Below are positions 1,809 through 13,302 of a DNA stretch of 64,000 nt, piece by piece. Under the pieces are notes generated by a model. It had not been told where the DNA came from. It did no database searches and was given only the letters and a program-made list of their open reading frames with translations. The position numbers were made by a program, and so were the translations under genes. How positions within the stretch are numbered: the first letter of the stretch is position 1; the number at the start of each line of letters is the position of its first letter. The DNA is from Ilyobacter polytropus DSM 2926. GTDB lineage: Bacteria; Fusobacteriota; Fusobacteriia; Fusobacteriales; Fusobacteriaceae. The stretch covers positions 1,178,001 to 1,242,000 of the forward strand of contig NC_014632.1 of NCBI RefSeq assembly GCF_000165505.1. The letters run 5' to 3'.

Positions 1809-1871
1809 CCCCTCCCTGTCAAATTATTTATATGAATCAAATTACTACTGAATATCTGAAAGAATTTTTCC

Positions 1872-2388
1872 TAAATTACTGACTTTATTTAAAGTTCCGT
1901 TACTTTTCCTTGATGAAAAGTAACCAAAAATCAAGGCCTGTGAAAAATCAGCTAAATAACCTTGAAAATCCAAGAAAAACTCGAAACTCGCTACGCTCAG
2001 ACAGTCGATTTTTTCTAGAGATTTCTTTCACTCATTCTTAACGCTGATTTTGTCAATGGCCGAAGAGTTTAAAAAATTTAGAATATTGGAAATCTAAATG
2101 TGCTAATGCGCATTCTTTTAATTTGGGCTGATATTATTTTTTATGTCTTTTGAATTTTCAAGTCGCAGGGCTTATACAGGAAAGAACCTGCACTCAGCCG
2201 TCCTACAGAATAAGTTCCGCAGGGAACCGAGGACTGTAGCTTACAAAGGCGATAAAAGAAATATCTACTTCTTAGACATTTGAAAATTCTTGAACTTTTG
2301 GTTATGCCCTGACCGAAGGGAGGAAATGCCCTTGGGGTGCTTTTCTTTCAAGAGAAAAGTAACGAATCCCGATAAATTCAATAATTTA
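1872..2388. repeat. Copy 1 of a dispersed non-coding repeat with terminal inverted repeats
   Basis: This is the 699-base gap between xdhA and the mocA-like gene. The outer ends, TAAATTACTGACTTTAT on the left and GATAAATTCAATAATTTA on the right, are imperfect inverted copies. Just inside each end is a hairpin-forming block (GTTACTTTTC...GAAAAGTAAC on the left, CTTTTC...GAAAAG on the right). The right arm (about 2160-2340) contains a set of GC-richer hairpins, for example TTCCGCAGGGAA, and is nearly identical to parts of the copies at 11.3-11.9 kb and 57.1-57.6 kb. The left arm (about 1921-1976) matches copy 2. No transposase or credible ORF is inside. Boundaries are set by where similarity to the other copies stops; I see no clear target duplication. 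Confidence 0.85.
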
Positions 2389-2478
2389 ATACAAAATAAA
2401 AATAGTAGCCTAAACTGTTTAATAACGTTTTTTAACTTTTTATTAAAAAGAAAATAAACTCTTATTTTTTTAATACAA

Positions 2479-2501
2479 GACCCCTATAAATTATAGGGGT
2501 C
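2479..2501 (-). terminator. Hairpin after xdhA
   Basis: A perfect 10-bp stem (GACCCCTATA / TATAGGGGTC) with a 3-base loop lies 6 bases beyond the xdhA stop codon. The T-tract is stronger on the plus strand (ATTTTTT), while the minus-strand tail is TTGTATTAAAAAA, so termination of the xdh transcript may be incomplete. Confidence 0.65.
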
Positions 2502-2507
2502 AATTTT

Positions 2508-4766
2508 TTACATATTTTCCATCATACCCAAAAGAACTTTTTCAGCTGTTATGGGAAGTTTTCTTATTCTTACTCCTGTGGCATTATATACTGCATCTGC
2601 TATGGCAGGAGCAGGTGTATTTACCACTACTTCTCCTATGGATTTAGCTCCAAATGGACCTGTAGGCTCGTGGGAATAGACAAATTCCACTGCCATATTT
2701 TTTATATCCCTTCTGCAAGGTATCTTGTACTGCATAAGGGTGTCATTTTTTACCCTTCCCTTGCTGTCGTACTGTATGTCTTCATAAAGAGCAAGGCCTA
2801 TTCCCTGGGCTGTTCCACCCTCTACCTGTACTCTTGCCAGATTTGGATTTATAGGCAACCCACAGTCAACCACAGATAAAAAGTCTAGTACTTCTACCTC
2901 TCCAGTCTCTGGGTCTACCTCTACCTCTGTAAATCCTGCTATGAATGGTGGCGGAGAACTTTCTCCCCCCCATGTTCCTGTCACAGTTATCTGATTTTTC
3001 CCTTCAAAGGAAATAAGCCTGTTTGCCAAATCCTCTAAGGAAATTTTCTCACCATTTTCAGTTTCCACATTCTCTCCGTCAAAGATGATCTGGTCATCTG
3101 AGACTTTTAGTATTTCTGAAGCTCCATTTATTATCTCTGTCCTCATTTTATTGGCAGCTATTATAACTGCATTTCCTGTTACATAGGTACCGCTAGATGC
3201 ATATGCACCAGGATCATATGGAGAGACATCAGTATCGGCTGAGTTTAATATTATCTTGTCTATTCCGCATTCTAAAACCTCTGCTGCCATCTGAGTCAGA
3301 ACTGTATCACTACCCTGACCCATATCTGTGACTCCTAGAAACAAAGTATAAGTTCCGTCGTCTCCAAGTTTTATTGTTGCTGAAGCAGTATCTATTCCAG
3401 CTATACCAGAACCCTGCATGGTTACAGCCATTCCAGCAGATCTAATCTTACCGTTTTCAGTGACTCTAGAAGGATATCTTTCATCCCACCCAAAGATTTC
3501 CTTTCCCTTTTCGACACATTTTTTTATGTCACCGCTGACTATATATTTTTCAGGTGCAGGTTCCACCAGGTTTTTTTCTCTTATTACAGTAGGGTCTATA
3601 CCCAGTTTTTTAGCAAGTTCATTTATGGCAGATTCCACTGCAAATGTTCCCTGAGTGGCACCGTATCCTCTAAAGGCTCCTCCAGGCATGGTATTGGTAT
3701 ATACGATTTTGGCATCATATTTCACAGCTGCCTTGTCGTATAGAGGTGAGGTTTTAAATGCCACCAGTTTAGTCACTGTAGGGGCATGTTCTCCATAGGC
3801 TCCTGTATTAGAAAGTATATCTATACTAAACCCCTTTATATTACCCTCTAAATCTGATCCCATCTTTACCTTTAATCTCATTCCATGTCTAGAGGTTGTG
3901 CATGTATGAGTCTCACTTCTGTTATATATCAGTTTAGCAGGTTTACCGGTTTTAAGAGTTACAATAGCTGGAAAAATTTCAGTGGCAGCTGTCTGCTTTC
4001 CTCCGAATCCTCCACCTATTCTTGGCTTTATTACTCTTATTTTGCTTCTCGGGATCTCTAGTGCCCTTGCCAGATGCCTTCTTACGTGGAAGGGTATTTG
4101 CGTAGAACTTATTACACAGAGTCTCCCGTTGGCATCTAAATAAGTTGAGCTTCTATATGTCTCCATCATTGCATGGATTTGGGGCTGAGTATAATATGTT
4201 TCCTCTATTATTACATCACTCTCTGTAAAGGCTTTTTCTAAATCTCCATTTTCTATAACATAACTAGATGCAATGTTTCTCTCTCTCTCCATCCCTATGT
4301 CAAAATTCTGATGAACATCCTCTTTGTGAACCAAGACAGGATTATCCACAGCTTTTTCATAATCAAGCACTGCGTCTAAAACATCATACTGAACTTTTAT
4401 GAGGTTCATAGCCTTAACAGCTGTCTTTTCATCTACAGCTGCTATTATGGCAACCTCATCTCCTACATATCTCACATATTCATCTAATATTCTTCTGTCA
4501 TATGGAGACGGCTCAGGATAAGACTGCCCTGCCAGAGTAAATTTTGTCATAGGCACATCTTCATGTGTTAAGATACATTCTACACCTGGTACTTTTTCAG
4601 CTATACTTTTATCTATATTTATTATTTTAGCCGAAGCATGAGGACTTCTCAGAATTTTTATTATAAGTGGGTTATTATTGATACTTAGATCATCTGTGTA
4701 GACAGGTCTTCCTGTTATGACCCCTATACCGTCTACTTTTTTGATCCCCTGACTTACTATTTTCAT
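2508..4766 (-). CDS. xdhA: Xanthine dehydrogenase-type hydroxylase, molybdopterin-binding catalytic subunit
   Basis: This is the large subunit (752 aa) of a molybdenum hydroxylase that oxidises a purine or related heterocycle with water as oxygen donor. Visible motifs include GGGFGGKQ at 251-258 and GAFRGYG at 363-369 (cofactor and substrate pocket), DMGQG, and GAKSIGE at 706-712 with the catalytic-type glutamate. Length is normal for a separate large subunit. It starts one base after the [2Fe-2S] gene ends and is the last gene of the FAD-FeS-Mo order, read from the riboswitch at 6.1 kb. The adjacent yqeB and mocA-like genes suggest the selenium-dependent branch of the family. Substrate (xanthine, hypoxanthine or another purine) cannot be fixed from sequence; the purine riboswitch and permease favour a purine. 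Confidence 0.92.
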   Translation of the reverse strand: MKIVSQGIKKVDGIGVITGRPVYTDDLSINNNPLIIKILRSPHASAKIINIDKSIAEKVPGVECILTHEDVPMTKFTLAGQSYPEPSPYDRRILDEYVRYVGDEVAIIAAVDEKTAVKAMNLIKVQYDVLDAVLDYEKAVDNPVLVHKEDVHQNFDIGMERERNIASSYVIENGDLEKAFTESDVIIEETYYTQPQIHAMMETYRSSTYLDANGRLCVISSTQIPFHVRRHLARALEIPRSKIRVIKPRIGGGFGGKQTAATEIFPAIVTLKTGKPAKLIYNRSETHTCTTSRHGMRLKVKMGSDLEGNIKGFSIDILSNTGAYGEHAPTVTKLVAFKTSPLYDKAAVKYDAKIVYTNTMPGGAFRGYGATQGTFAVESAINELAKKLGIDPTVIREKNLVEPAPEKYIVSGDIKKCVEKGKEIFGWDERYPSRVTENGKIRSAGMAVTMQGSGIAGIDTASATIKLGDDGTYTLFLGVTDMGQGSDTVLTQMAAEVLECGIDKIILNSADTDVSPYDPGAYASSGTYVTGNAVIIAANKMRTEIINGASEILKVSDDQIIFDGENVETENGEKISLEDLANRLISFEGKNQITVTGTWGGESSPPPFIAGFTEVEVDPETGEVEVLDFLSVVDCGLPINPNLARVQVEGGTAQGIGLALYEDIQYDSKGRVKNDTLMQYKIPCRRDIKNMAVEFVYSHEPTGPFGAKSIGEVVVNTPAPAIADAVYNATGVRIRKLPITAEKVLLGMMENM

Positions 4767-5219
4767 CTAGCTCTCTACCCCCATATATTTTTTTATCGCC
4801 CTCAACTGAGAGACATACCCTGTGCATCTGCATAGGTTACCATTGAGATAATGGACTATATCCTCTTCAGTTGGATTTTCTAGTTCTTTTTTCATTGCAA
4901 GCACAGTCATTGTAAATCCCGGAGCACAAAATCCGCACTGCTCTGCTCCTTCTCCTGCCATAAATTCTGCAAATTCCAAAGCGTCTTTTTGAAGTGCCTC
5001 TATAGTTGTTATATTTTTCCCGGATACTCTCACACTTAGTGTAGAGCAGGAAAGTACCGGCTTTTCCTCTACCCATACTGTGCATAGTCCGCAAGACCCA
5101 GTATCGCAGCCTTTTTTCACACTTAAAAAACCGTATCTTCTCAGGGTATCCACCAGATATTCATCACACTCTATATTAAAATTCATCTTTCTTCCGTTTA
5201 CTGTTACATCTATATTCAT
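4767..5219 (-). CDS. xdhC: Xanthine dehydrogenase-type hydroxylase, [2Fe-2S] subunit
   Basis: This small iron-sulfur subunit (150 aa) carries electrons from the molybdenum centre to FAD. The N-terminal plant-ferredoxin fold has Cys38, Cys43, Cys46 and Cys58 (first cluster). The C-terminal helical domain has CGFC at 95-98 and CRC at 130-132 (second cluster). The start at 5219 is chosen because the upstream stop overlaps it as TAATG and GGAGG lies before it; a longer reading frame to 5333 only adds out-of-phase sequence of the FAD gene. It is translationally coupled to both neighbours. Note that the name xdhC is also used for the unrelated accessory protein family represented at 7266-8090. Confidence 0.93.
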   Translation of the reverse strand: MNIDVTVNGRKMNFNIECDEYLVDTLRRYGFLSVKKGCDTGSCGLCTVWVEEKPVLSCSTLSVRVSGKNITTIEALQKDALEFAEFMAGEGAEQCGFCAPGFTMTVLAMKKELENPTEEDIVHYLNGNLCRCTGYVSQLRAIKKYMGVES

Positions 5220-6007
5220 TACATTACCTCCATTAGAGCTCTTTTCAGCATAACTTTGCAAACAGCCTTTCTGTACTTCCCAGAGGCTCTCATATTGTCT
5301 CCAAAGGTAAGCTCCTCTGAGGCTACCTGACATATATCTTCAATATTGTCTTCTGTTAATCCATCTGTATTTATTTTCTCCATTGCTTTAGCAGCCAAAA
5401 CAGCTTTTCCAGGTCTTGCTCCAACTGCAATTCTTATTCCATCAACTAAGTTAGCTGCTACTACATTTAATACTGCATAGTCACTGTTACTCTTTCTTAT
5501 AGTCTGAAAACTACCCTTGGCAGGCTTGTTTTTAATCAAAATCTTAACCAAAATATCCTGTTTTATATCTGATTCTAAAAATTTATCAAGTGGCATCTCT
5601 CCTGCATTAAAAAGAACTACAGAAGTGTCTAAAGCCAATAATGCAGGGATAAAATCAGAAAACCCGTATTTAGAGAAAACTGTAGCACCAGCAGTTACTA
5701 CATTCCGAAGCTGTACTCCTACTATATCCTCTACAGAACAAGCTACTATCCCACTGAATTTTTTTTTCAAAATATCACTGGTTTCGATATCTCTGAATGT
5801 TGTCATTGCACCGATTTCAATATTTTCCCCCTCCTCTTTTATAAAGGAAAGATCTAACGCTGACAGATCTATAGCCGTAGACAGACGTCTGTTCCCCATC
5901 TTAATGTAAGCGGTACCTCCCAAAATTGCATTGTTCTTGTTTTTTACTAGCATATCATAAGCCTCTTCTAGAGATGAAGCTAAAAGATATTTTGAAAAAG
6001 TAAACAA
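5219..6007 (-). CDS. xdhB: Xanthine dehydrogenase-type hydroxylase, FAD-binding subunit
   Basis: This 262-aa protein of the CoxM/XdhB FAD-binding family is the electron exit subunit, passing electrons to NAD+ or ferredoxin. Recognisable blocks are AILGGTAYIKMGNRR (about residues 27-41, pyrophosphate binding), EIGAMTTFRDIE, and the block LRNVVTAGATVFSKYGFSD around 101-119. It is the first gene of the hydroxylase operon, 31 bases after the riboswitch terminator, with an AGGAGG Shine-Dalgarno. Its TAA overlaps the ATG of the [2Fe-2S] gene. The N-terminus, MFTFSKYLLASSLEEAYDML, is a normal start for the family, so no truncation is apparent. Confidence 0.9.
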   Translation of the reverse strand: MFTFSKYLLASSLEEAYDMLVKNKNNAILGGTAYIKMGNRRLSTAIDLSALDLSFIKEEGENIEIGAMTTFRDIETSDILKKKFSGIVACSVEDIVGVQLRNVVTAGATVFSKYGFSDFIPALLALDTSVVLFNAGEMPLDKFLESDIKQDILVKILIKNKPAKGSFQTIRKSNSDYAVLNVVAANLVDGIRIAVGARPGKAVLAAKAMEKINTDGLTEDNIEDICQVASEELTFGDNMRASGKYRKAVCKVMLKRALMEVM

Positions 6008-6037: not shown

Positions 6038-6171
6038 AAAAAACACCTATCTCTTCATTTTTAAGTGAAGAAAATAGGTGCTTATTCCACTATTTTTCTC
6101 TTCACTCATAGTTAAGTCATTTACGGCAACTTTGTAGAGACGCCTATCCATATTATAGGCATATATGAGTG
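6038..6171 (-). promoter_or_regulatory. Guanine-type purine riboswitch with intrinsic terminator, upstream of xdhB
   Basis: The aptamer occupies 6103-6171 on the minus strand. It has P1 arms CACTCATA / TATGAGTG, the loop 2 motif ATATGG, the J2/3 segment TCTCTAC, the loop 3 motif CCGTAAA, and J3/1 reading AACTATG. The C in ACTAT is the base that pairs with guanine or hypoxanthine/xanthine (adenine switches have U). Downstream, 6038-6080 forms a terminator (CACCTAT...ATAGGTG then T6). The 3' side of P1 plus AGAGAAAAATAG can pair with CTATTTTCTTCACT inside the terminator, giving an antiterminator. The expected logic is therefore OFF when ligand binds. No tool was run; the motif match is direct. 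Confidence 0.93.
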
Positions 6172-6185
6172 TAACAATACAAAAC

Positions 6186-6214
6186 ATTATAACACGAAGA
6201 AAGCTTTTTAACAA
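6186..6214 (-). promoter_or_regulatory. Promoter of the xdhBCA operon
   Basis: On the minus strand, TTGTTA and TATAAT are separated by exactly 17 bases, and the predicted transcript starts a few bases before the riboswitch aptamer. It lies between the stop of the MoeA-like gene and the riboswitch, so the hydroxylase genes can be expressed independently of the accessory genes upstream. Confidence 0.75.
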
Positions 6215-6252: not shown

Positions 6253-7269
6253 TTATTTTCCAAAAGAGCAGTTGGGATATCTGCATTCATCACAATTCTG
6301 ACAGAGACCCCCGCTGCCGTATCTCATTATGTCCTCTTTTTTAATTTTTTCTCCTGCGAGAACTCTAGGAAGTATCAAATCAAATACAGTTCTTTTGCTA
6401 TACATTACGCATCCGGGAAGTCCCATTATTACAGTATTTTCCAGATAAGACAAAAGAAACATCGATCCCGGAAGCACAGGAGAACCATAGCTTACAAGCT
6501 CTCCTCCCATCTCTATAATTGAACCAGGTGTGAGATCGTCAGGATCTACAGACATTCCACCTGTGCATATTATCATATCTACTGAATCTTCTAAGTGGGT
6601 TTTTATAGCATTTTTTATCTTTTCCCTTTCGTCAGGTACGATTATCTGAGACGTTACTTCACAATCATATTCCTTTAGCTTTTCCCTAACTACCGGTCCA
6701 AATTTATCAGATATCCTGTTGTTGTATACTTCACTTCCTGTTGTGACTATCCCAACCCTCATCTTTTGAAACTCTTCTACATTTATTATTTTATCAGTTG
6801 CTAGCTTTTTAGCTGCTTCCATCTTTTTTTTATCTATTACTAGGGGTATGACCCTCGCCCCGCCAATTATATCTCCTTTTTTAACTGGGATATTCTCAGG
6901 TAAGGTGGCAAAGGATATCTCTCCTAGCATATTTATTTCAAATAGTTTCTCCTTATCCACTTTGAGAAGGCCATCTTTTGATGCATAAAAATTTATTTTC
7001 CCCTCTTTTATCTCATCACTTAAATAAACGTTTTTTCCGCAGCCTATTTCACCTAAAATTACTGCAGCATCATTTTCATGAAGTTCGTCTTTTCCAAGTT
7101 CAAATATATATATGTGGTCTTTCCCAAGACTTCTGAGTTTTTCTACATCTTCTTCTCTTATTATATGTCCTTTTTTAAATGCCCTGCCCTTAAACTTGCC
7201 TGGAACGATCTCTGTTATATCGTGGGAAATAATATGCCCTACGGCATCAGTTGTTTTTATCTTTTTCAC
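6253..7269 (-). CDS. MoeA-like molybdopterin-binding protein with a C-terminal cysteine cluster
   Basis: This 338-aa cytoplasmic protein has a MoCF_biosynth (molybdopterin-binding) domain at about residues 165-300. Motifs include GIVTTGSEV, IICTGGMSVDPDD and IMGLPGCVMYS, typical of proteins related to MoeA/MogA that handle molybdopterin and molybdate. The first 160 residues are a divergent MoeA-like N-terminal part. An unusual tail, CQNCDECRYPNC (about residues 323-334), contains four cysteines and could bind metal or a cluster. It starts with GTG overlapping the TGA of the XdhC/CoxI-like gene (GTGA), with AAGGAG 7 bases upstream. Such genes recur beside selenium-dependent hydroxylases. It may be a specialised molybdenum-insertion factor rather than the housekeeping MoeA. 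Confidence 0.82.
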   Translation of the reverse strand: MKKIKTTDAVGHIISHDITEIVPGKFKGRAFKKGHIIREEDVEKLRSLGKDHIYIFELGKDELHENDAAVILGEIGCGKNVYLSDEIKEGKINFYASKDGLLKVDKEKLFEINMLGEISFATLPENIPVKKGDIIGGARVIPLVIDKKKMEAAKKLATDKIINVEEFQKMRVGIVTTGSEVYNNRISDKFGPVVREKLKEYDCEVTSQIIVPDEREKIKNAIKTHLEDSVDMIICTGGMSVDPDDLTPGSIIEMGGELVSYGSPVLPGSMFLLSYLENTVIMGLPGCVMYSKRTVFDLILPRVLAGEKIKKEDIMRYGSGGLCQNCDECRYPNCSFGK

Positions 7270-8090
7270 AAATTTTCTCCTTGTATTTTTACTTTTTTCA
7301 CTTCAAACATATGTTTGCCGCTCTTTTGATTTTTGATTTTCAAAATTTCAGCCATTATTCCCAAGGCTATTTCATTGGGCTCTCCACTTGATATGTCAAG
7401 ACCTATAGGAGAATAAACTTTTTCAAGTTTTTTTATGCTTATTCCTTCATTTATAAGTTCTTTGTATGTATCAGTTATTTTTTTACGACTTCCTATCATA
7501 CCGATATATGCCAATTTTTTTTCTAGGACTGCCTTGAGGGCCACCTTGTCACAGGCGTGTCCCCTGGTAACAATGACAACATAAGATCCGTCATCTAAGG
7601 AATATTTTTCCAATATTTTTCCTATATCCCCCCATAATAGTTCGTCTGCATGGGGAAACCTTTTTCTATCGACATATTCTTCTCTATCATCTATTATGAC
7701 TGTATACATATTTAAAAATTTACCCAGCTTATAAAGCTCATTCCCTAAGTGGCCTCCGCCTACTATTATAAGTTTTTTTCTTTTTTCAAAAACTTTTACA
7801 TATCCTTTTACTCTTCCTCCACATTTCATATGAAGTTCCCCATCTTCTATTAGTTCAAAATCAAATTTTCTGTTTTTACCTTCCTCTATAGCCTCTAGTG
7901 CAGAATTTATAACCTGATACTCCAAATTTCCACCGCCGATTGTTCCCTCTATACTGCCGTCCTCAAATACTCCCATTATAGAACCTGACTTCCCTGGACT
8001 AGATCCCTCTACTTCTATCAAGGTCACAAGAGCAGCTTTTTCACCTTTTTCTATTCTTTTAGCAATTTCCATCATTAATCTGCCTTCCAT
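7266..8090 (-). CDS. XdhC/CoxI-family hydroxylase maturation protein
   Basis: This 274-aa protein has an N-terminal XdhC_CoxI domain (about 5-75) and a C-terminal Rossmann domain with IIVGGGHLGNEL near residues 110-121. In characterised members (Rhodobacter XdhC) the protein binds molybdenum cofactor, promotes its sulfuration and delivers it to the hydroxylase. In the selenium-dependent branch the related proteins are thought to help add selenium. The family cysteine motif is visible as HMKCGGRVKGYV near residue 90. It is first in a two-gene operon with the MoeA-like gene (4-base overlap) and divergent from the kor genes. An AGGGAGAG site precedes the ATG at 8090. Confidence 0.88.
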   Translation of the reverse strand: MEGRLMMEIAKRIEKGEKAALVTLIEVEGSSPGKSGSIMGVFEDGSIEGTIGGGNLEYQVINSALEAIEEGKNRKFDFELIEDGELHMKCGGRVKGYVKVFEKRKKLIIVGGGHLGNELYKLGKFLNMYTVIIDDREEYVDRKRFPHADELLWGDIGKILEKYSLDDGSYVVIVTRGHACDKVALKAVLEKKLAYIGMIGSRKKITDTYKELINEGISIKKLEKVYSPIGLDISSGEPNEIALGIMAEILKIKNQKSGKHMFEVKKVKIQGENL

Positions 8091-11205: not shown

Positions 11206-11276
11206 TACTATTTTTTCATCTCAATATCCAAAATTTAAAAATAATATAACCAGCTTAGGTGTTTACTTTTATTGCA

Positions 11277-11868
11277 AAATAAAGTATTGAATTTATCGGG
11301 ATTCGTTACTTTTCTCTTGAAAGAAAAGTACCCCAAGAGTGTTTCCTCCCTTCGGTCAGGGCATAACCAAAAATCAAGGCCTGTGAAAAATCAGCTAAAT
11401 AACCTTGAAAATCCAAGAAAAGTAATGAGACTCAGAAAACAAGTTTCTGAGAACCAGAAAATATACTCGTATAACTCGTTATTTTATGGTCACTCGCTTC
11501 GCTCAGACAGTTGATTTTTTCTAGAGACTTCTCTCAGTCATTCTTAACGCTTATTTTATCAATGATCAAAAACTTAAAAAAAACTTTTGTGTGAATAAAC
11601 CTTGGTAAACCTTTGCGCTTACTTCTCAAGTGATAACATATGGTTTTAAATTTTTTTGAATTTCAAGTCGCAGGGCTTATACAGGAAAGAGCCCGCACTC
11701 AGCCGTCCTACAGAATAAGTTCCGCAGGGAACTGAGGACTGTAGCTTACAAAGGCGATAAAAGAAATATATACTTCCTAGACATTTGAAAATTCTTGATT
11801 TTCTTTGGTTACTTTCTTTTATCAAGAAAAGAAAGTAACACAGGTTTTCAGATAAATTAAGTAATTTA
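11277..11868. repeat. Copy 2 of the dispersed repeat with terminal inverted repeats
   Basis: This copy fills most of the 808-base gap between korC and the purine permease. Its left end, TATTGAATTTATCGGGATTC followed by GTTACTTTTCTCTTGAAAG, is the exact reverse complement of the right end of copy 1. Its right end, GATAAATTAAGTAATTTA, corresponds to the left end of copy 1. A block with CCTCCCTTCGGTCAGGGC at about 11346-11363 is at the left here but at the right, inverted, in copy 1. The right arm (about 11660-11800) is almost identical to that of copy 1 and includes the TTCCGCAGGGAA hairpin. A small ORF inside (11272-11514) has no ribosome binding site and no resemblance to anything I know. Confidence 0.85.
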
Positions 11869-11970: not shown

Positions 11971-13302
11971 TTATGCATTTTTCAATTTTGCTTCAGTTTC
12001 CTTTTCCTCAACTTCATCTTGAGGTAAAACAATATTTAGTATCAAAGCAATGGCTCCAGATACCACTATTCCTGATCCACCAAAAATAAGCTGAATCGTC
12101 TTAGGAAAGTGAGCAAGTGCTTCTGGTACACTTCCAAGTCCGAATCCAAGTCCTAATGAAACGGCGATTATAACACTATTTCTACCTTCAAGTTTATCCT
12201 TTGTTATAAGATTGATTCCGCTTATTGATATCATTGCAAATATCATAACCAGACTTCCGCCTATAACACTTGGGGGGATAATTGTGAACAGTGCACCAAT
12301 TTTTGGAATAAAAGCTCCCATAACTAGTAATGACGCTCCCACTGCTACTACGTGTCTGCTCATTATTCCAGTCATAGCAACAAGACCTGTATTTTGGCTA
12401 AAGGATGTTGTAGGAAGAATACTAAATGCAGAAGCTAAAGCACTACCAAAACCGTCTGCCATAATTCCTCCAGAAAGCTCTCTATCTGTTGTTTCTCTTC
12501 CTGCTCCACCCATAGTTACACCTGACATATCTCCTACAGTCTCAACTGCAGAAACTACAAACATGAGAACCATAGCTAGTATTGCATCAATATGAAAAGC
12601 AAATCCGTAAGTAAAAGGCTTTGGAACTATGAAAAAGTTTGCCTGAGATACAGCCCCTAAGTCAACCTTTCCAAAAAGAGCTGCAACAAAAAATCCTACA
12701 ATAGTTCCTATAACAACTGATGCCGTGCTTGTTATTCCCTTAGTAAACTGCTTAAAGAAAATTACAGTAAGGAGAACTATCATTCCTATTGTCATGTTAA
12801 CAGGAGAGCCAAAGTCTGCTGCTCCTACTCCACCTGCAAAATACTTTATTCCTACTGGAAGAAGTGATAAACCTATTGAAAGAACAACCACACCTGTAAC
12901 GATAGGCGGGAAAAATTTTCTTATTTTACCAATAACCGATCCCAGAAGAGCTTCAAATATACCACCTACAAGGGCAGCTCCTAAAACCGCTTCAAATCCG
13001 TATTTAGTCCCGATAGATATGGCCACTGGTACAAAGGCAAAACTGGTACCAACTACAACTGGAAGTTTAGCCCCTATAGGACCTAAACTGTAAGCCTGAA
13101 TCATAGTGTTTAATCCCGCTACTAGCATTGTACACTGAATAAGGAATGTCTTTTGTTCCTGAGGAAGACCTAAAACCCCAGATACAATAATAATCGGTGT
13201 AAGATTACTGACGAACATAGCTAAAATATGCTGAAGTCCCAAAGGAAATGCTACTTTTAACGGTGGTACTCCGTCCAAGTGATAAGGTGACGTGTTTTTC
13301 AT
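11971..13302 (-). CDS. NCS2-family xanthine/uric acid (purine) permease
   Basis: This 443-aa inner-membrane protein has about 12-14 hydrophobic segments. It belongs to the nucleobase:cation symporter 2 family (UraA/XanP/PbuX/UacT). Typical features are the QHILAMFVSNLTPIIIV start of TM1, the QAYSLGPIGAKLPVVVGTSF stretch in the TM3 region, and the signature SFSQNTGLVAMTGI near residue 295. The QNTGL(V/I)..T motif fits the xanthine/uric acid branch. A purine riboswitch in its leader supports a purine rather than uracil as cargo. AGGAGGAG lies 8 bases before the ATG. It is a single-gene transcript that presumably feeds the hydroxylase encoded at 2.5-6 kb. Confidence 0.88.
   Translation of the reverse strand: MKNTSPYHLDGVPPLKVAFPLGLQHILAMFVSNLTPIIIVSGVLGLPQEQKTFLIQCTMLVAGLNTMIQAYSLGPIGAKLPVVVGTSFAFVPVAISIGTKYGFEAVLGAALVGGIFEALLGSVIGKIRKFFPPIVTGVVVLSIGLSLLPVGIKYFAGGVGAADFGSPVNMTIGMIVLLTVIFFKQFTKGITSTASVVIGTIVGFFVAALFGKVDLGAVSQANFFIVPKPFTYGFAFHIDAILAMVLMFVVSAVETVGDMSGVTMGGAGRETTDRELSGGIMADGFGSALASAFSILPTTSFSQNTGLVAMTGIMSRHVVAVGASLLVMGAFIPKIGALFTIIPPSVIGGSLVMIFAMISISGINLITKDKLEGRNSVIIAVSLGLGFGLGSVPEALAHFPKTIQLIFGGSGIVVSGAIALILNIVLPQDEVEEKETEAKLKNA

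Follow-up and report, generated by a model that had tools for sequence, protein, structure and literature searches.

The xdhBCA operon of Ilyobacter polytropus DSM 2926 is headed by a canonical guanine-type (guanine-I) purine riboswitch, a class that is already known. We consider it probable that this element is an OFF switch and that the operon serves purine salvage, in which a purine base is converted through xanthine and XMP to GMP by a unit that is split in Ilyobacter. The ligand, the OFF direction, the substrate of the enzyme and the salvage flux of the XdhBCA system are what we infer. The window analysed, 64,000 nucleotides, covers positions 1178001-1242000 of chromosome I in a genome of 3,132,314 bases, and coordinates below are those of the window unless stated otherwise.

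A scan of the window with Rfam gave an RF00167 match at 6188-6089 (minus strand) with 77.0 bits (gathering threshold 37, E 5.6e-12), and its three-way junction core spans approximately 6171-6103. U22, U47, U51 and C74 are all standard in the aligned columns. The covariance search and the pocket bases thus bear out the initial annotation, which had placed a C74-type purine riboswitch before xdhBCA. The four residues are kept in 41 out of 41 aligned aptamers from homologous loci, the xdhBCA aptamer included. Junction variation among the 41 is limited to position 48 (freely), position 53 (two exceptions) and position 73, and no junction insertion was found. Covariation in P1, P2 and P3 of the homologous aptamers reached 0.604, compared to 0.223 in shuffled and 0.08-0.19 in slid versions. 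A covariance model of the homologous aptamers was built on the Rfam structure (R2) in place of an uninformative one on the RNAalifold structure (R1, 5 pairs). Xanthine-II type is ruled out by U51 (not U51G) and the standard-length junctions, adenine type by C rather than U at position 74, and the 2'-dG type by the pocket bases. Judged from its pocket, the xdhBCA switch would have guanine as its ligand. Guanine riboswitches accept hypoxanthine and xanthine as well, with lower affinity. A different genus of the family carries, at 1501-1600 of loci L027 and L036 (also L034), an aptamer with U74 (adenine type) 5' of an adenosine deaminase-like gene, which resembles the known add adenine riboswitch.

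The expression platform is on the minus strand as well. An intrinsic terminator with its T tract occupies 6038-6081; the hairpin (6081-6042) has a folding energy of -16.8 kcal/mol and the T's run on to 6038. A predicted antiterminator (6062-6108) pairs the AGUGAAG of the P1 3' strand with the complementary CUUCACU in the terminator 5' arm, and this duplex is worth -15.4 kcal/mol. When the leader was folded at growing lengths, the aptamer with P1 was present up to 114 nt, the antiterminator breaking P1 appeared at 120-138 nt, and P1 together with the terminator formed at 144 nt. Because a ligand holding P1 would favor termination, the modeled folds point to an OFF switch. A putative promoter at 6186-6214 (minus strand) consists of TTGTTA (6214-6209), a 17-nt spacer and TATAAT (6191-6186), with TG immediately 5' of the -10 hexamer. 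Matches to TTGTTA-17-TATAAT are common by chance (3 found vs. 1.9 in shuffles); the hexamers at xdhBCA are unchanged in two congeners (L067, L068). The terminator, the antiterminator and the operon's own promoter had all been proposed in the initial annotation, and the folding and conservation results agree with it on each. Most related leaders have the same layout, with a terminator arm containing a UUUCACUU-like element, and a strong terminator was found in 28 of 35. In the other seven (L080, L081, L082 and L107-L110), inspection by eye showed segments of CUCCUAA, the complement of UUAGGAG at the ribosome site. These terminator-poor leaders may represent a translational form of the same switch logic.

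The three genes of the operon follow on the minus strand. xdhB (5219-6007; PF00941, PF03450) encodes the FAD subunit, starts with TTG and is preceded by AGGAGG at 6020-6015. xdhC (4767-5219; PF00111, PF01799) encodes the 2Fe-2S subunit; its likely start is 5219, with a longer reading frame from 5333. xdhA (2508-4766) encodes the molybdopterin subunit. The FAD, 2Fe-2S and Mo domains are thus spread by Pfam over three proteins, as in three-part xanthine dehydrogenases. The best NCBIfam model for XdhA is the XdhA equivalog NF043082, with 659.5 bits against a cut-off of 780, and all three subunits score under their equivalog cut-offs. The score with the selenium-dependent XDH model TIGR03311, a family in which the 2Fe-2S and Mo parts are fused in one protein, is 299.7 bits, also under its cut-off of 830. 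XdhA has 37% identity with its E. coli counterpart, and the two have in common the Gln of GGGFG[GN]KQ, which is Glu in the Se-dependent XDH of I. polytropus. A PDB search supported only the hydroxylase superfamily, the top match being 4-hydroxybenzoyl-CoA reductase. The model score, the identity and the shared Gln make an E. coli-type xanthine dehydrogenase the most likely identity of XdhBCA, with xanthine and hypoxanthine as its likely substrate pair.

A hairpin at 2479-2501 (minus strand) likely ends the xdhBCA transcript. The neighboring genes lie on the same strand. Upstream are a MoeA-like molybdopterin-binding protein (6253-7269) and an XdhC-family maturation factor (7266-8090). Downstream are a MocA-like nucleotidyltransferase (903-1808), probably on a separate transcript in Ilyobacter, and YqeB, a selenium-dependent molybdenum hydroxylase maturation protein (119-949; TIGR03309, 369.7 bits, cut-off 220). 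A single transcript from the riboswitch through mocA and yqeB is unlikely, given the hairpin and 0.7 kb between xdhA and mocA. The MocA-like protein has about 110 additional N-terminal residues without a family match in front of its nucleotidyltransferase domain. A non-coding repeat flanks the region in opposite orientations, at about 1850-2460 (minus) and about 11270-11510 (plus). Its 24-base segment CCTCCCTTCGGTCAGGGCATAACC matches exactly between 2300-2323 (minus) and 11345-11368 (plus), where none would be expected by chance.

The pairing of riboswitch and enzyme is conserved among relatives. We searched 98 Fusobacteriota genomes, 37 of which have an XdhA of at least 59% identity, and 35 of these loci had readable upstream DNA and could be tested. 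In all 35 Fusobacteriaceae loci a purine riboswitch heads the xdh unit, directly before xdhB in five and before pbuX-xdhBCA in 30; given the relatedness of the genomes, these are not independent events. xpt lies downstream in the same-strand gene run in 21 of the 35, often behind a mocA-like gene. Four relatives whose XdhA is more distant (about 51%) showed no riboswitch. Of the 391 clostridial genomes searched, 31 encode an XdhA with E below 1e-200. Within the best 20 of these loci, two have a riboswitch directly 5' of xdhB and 18 gave no riboswitch. A separate XdhA search of genome contigs returned four clostridial loci, and RF00167 was not found in those genomes. Two Agathobaculum loci have xpt 5' of xdhBCA and no riboswitch, so the link between xpt and xdh is independent of the switch.

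The genome carries seven RF00167 sites, upstream of xdhBCA, pbuX, a second purine permease, purL, fhs, guaA and guaB (the last four and the second permease were named by reading their translations). The genes behind all seven belong to purine or GMP supply. The pbuX site lies in the same window at 13516-13419 (minus strand, 77.2 bits, guanine type) and is missing from the initial annotation. It precedes a pbuX-type NCS2 xanthine permease at 11971-13302 (minus strand; TIGR03173, 429.3 bits, cut-off 414.15). This PbuX is 67-79% identical to the permease found immediately 5' of xdhB in most riboswitch-carrying relatives. The pbuX aptamer is up to 83% identical to the pbuX-xdh aptamers of relatives vs. 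68% to the xdhBCA aptamer of the window, and for that reason it looks like the older of the two copies. xpt is found at C2:7754-8314 (TIGR01744, 235.7 bits, cut-off 164.45), divergent to the riboswitch-guaA unit. The genome also contains two tandem hpt genes, and its best score for guanine deaminase (TIGR02967) is 158.5 bits against a cut-off of 375.

A second xanthine dehydrogenase in the same genome provides a control. The purine-degradation cluster on C1, at about 127-139 kb, encodes an NCS2 permease, the diaminopropionate ammonia-lyase YgeX, YgeY, SsnA, a dihydropyrimidinase, a PreA-like protein and the Se-dependent XDH, which is the true TIGR03311 member of the genome (C1:127014-129563). 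No purine riboswitch was found at any of 22 Se-dependent XDH degradation loci, namely the I. polytropus cluster and 21 further loci. The switch goes with the pbuX-xdhBCA-xpt enzyme and not with the degradative XDH. Two other molybdenum hydroxylases are encoded on chromosome I. One, at about 139.7-143.1 kb (L098 3675-7132, minus strand), has three parts and lies beside ABC permease genes and the degradation cluster; a purine riboswitch was not found there. The other, at about 115-125 kb (L097 9275-12920 and L091 2187-6728), has a split Mo subunit (421 and 326 aa) beside reductase-like and amidohydrolase-like genes. A Mo subunit split in this way is also that of nicotinate dehydrogenase, and the genes may form a nicotinate fermentation cluster.

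In the mechanism that we propose, guanine, when plentiful, would bind the aptamer (as would xanthine or hypoxanthine, less strongly) and lock P1, freeing the terminator 5' arm so that transcription ends near 6038. With guanine in short supply, the P1 3' strand would pair with the terminator arm and xdhBCA would be read. XdhBCA would then convert a purine base at hand, most probably hypoxanthine, to xanthine, which Xpt would convert to XMP and GuaA to GMP. The enzyme would thereby open a second salvage path to XMP beside GuaB, under shared control with guaB, guaA and pbuX. Most relatives have pbuX-xdhBCA, often with xpt, in one run of genes behind a riboswitch. In Ilyobacter the unit is split, pbuX and xdhBCA carry a switch each, and xpt lies beside the riboswitch-guaA unit. 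Repression of XdhBCA by guanine makes sense because the gene neighborhood indicates xanthine for GMP rather than purine breakdown. The initial annotation had offered this role as one explanation, and it is strongly supported by xpt downstream of the unit in relatives, the guaA and guaB riboswitches and the separate, unswitched Se-XDH cluster. Several observations run counter to it. The Ilyobacter xpt lies outside the xdh transcript, the three Xdh subunits score under their equivalog cut-offs, and the four relatives with a distant XdhA and 18 of 20 clostridial loci lack the riboswitch. The chief weakness is that the two hpt genes could take hypoxanthine to IMP, and from there to guaB, without XdhBCA, so that the detour via xanthine needs a reason.

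XdhBCA might instead degrade purines, with a xanthine- or guanine-sensing switch that stops the build-up of oxidised purines as product feedback. NMT1 xanthine riboswitches are indeed OFF switches on genes that make oxidised purines (PMC7373994), and a C74-type switch of C. difficile reportedly responds specifically to xanthine (PMC11477304). However, the dedicated degradation cluster of this genome has its own Se-dependent XDH without a purine riboswitch, the operon partners of xdh in relatives are pbuX and xpt rather than degradation genes, and the pocket is not of the xanthine-II type. We therefore regard catabolic feedback as unlikely. The same regulon could also contain a reductive enzyme, if urate (or 8-oxopurines) imported by PbuX were reduced to xanthine and Xpt and GuaA completed GMP salvage. 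Xanthine dehydrogenases of purinolytic clostridia are able to act on urate. The host is strictly anaerobic, NCS2 cluster II carriers transport xanthine and uric acid (PMC13328217), and the gene order is equally compatible with this direction, but urate as a substrate of XdhBCA is purely conjectural in I. polytropus and we think the reductive version very unlikely.

The ligand itself could have drifted to xanthine or 2'-deoxyguanosine in an otherwise real aptamer, and the link to xdh genes would then reflect the new ligand. In Paenibacillus, xanthine-II riboswitches go with xanthine dehydrogenase genes (PMC9295807), but the conservation of all four pocket bases in every aligned aptamer and the uninterrupted junctions leave such drift the least likely of these alternatives. 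The initial annotation had raised another purine ligand as its second explanation; the canonical guanine pocket, free of U51G and insertions, weakens that part. What speaks for it is the C74-type switch of C. difficile that answers mainly or specifically to xanthine, which makes xanthine conceivable as a physiological co-ligand (PMC11477304).

The closest known system is the xpt-pbuX operon of B. subtilis (guanine-I, RF00167), which has the same aptamer class and pocket as the xdhBCA switch. There, guanine exerts OFF control by termination on an operon for a xanthine permease and xanthine phosphoribosyltransferase (cited in PMC11477304). The switched unit of Fusobacteriaceae adds xdhBCA, the xanthine-making step, and in Ilyobacter the unit is split with xpt elsewhere. 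In C. difficile, purine riboswitches control guaA, xpt and two permeases, all as OFF switches (PMC11477304). This regulon is like that of I. polytropus in its guaA and permease targets, but xanthine dehydrogenase is not among the reported C. difficile targets. Xanthine-II of Paenibacillus, with U51G, insertions in J2-3 and J3-1 and xanthine as ligand, controls xanthine dehydrogenase and degradation genes (PMC9295807). It shares the guanine-riboswitch scaffold before xanthine dehydrogenase genes, although its U51G and insertions are absent from the xdhBCA switch. Xanthine-I (NMT1) senses xanthine and urate and comprises OFF switches with translational control on purine-oxidation and transport genes (PMC7373994); its fold is unrelated to the xdhBCA aptamer and its logic on these genes is alike. 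On the enzyme side, the nearest named family is E. coli XdhABC, whose genes adjoin ygeVWXY and ssnA and are not reported to carry a riboswitch. E. coli XDH reportedly has a role in purine salvage, as the title of Xi et al. 2000 is said to claim (listed in PMC13328217). Beyond xanthine-II, we found no earlier report pairing a purine riboswitch with xanthine dehydrogenase in the searchable literature, which includes few subscription papers. As far as that literature shows, a conserved xanthine dehydrogenase target of the guanine riboswitch has not been described previously.

More tentatively, and with rather less confidence than even chances would imply, a molybdenum hydroxylase may serve biosynthesis throughout the family by going around IMP dehydrogenase, under repression by guanine, from a purine base or urate through xanthine to XMP. 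The two XDHs of a cell would then be separated by regulation, the salvage enzyme with a guanine riboswitch and the degradative Se-dependent enzyme without one. The gene context resolves the apparent paradox of guanine repressing purine oxidation. Presence of the riboswitch offers a regulatory means to separate salvage from degradative xanthine dehydrogenases, two kinds that annotation by sequence confuses. The guanine riboswitch regulon of Fusobacteriaceae, among them anaerobes of the gut and mouth that deal with purines from the host, gains a conserved molybdoenzyme target.
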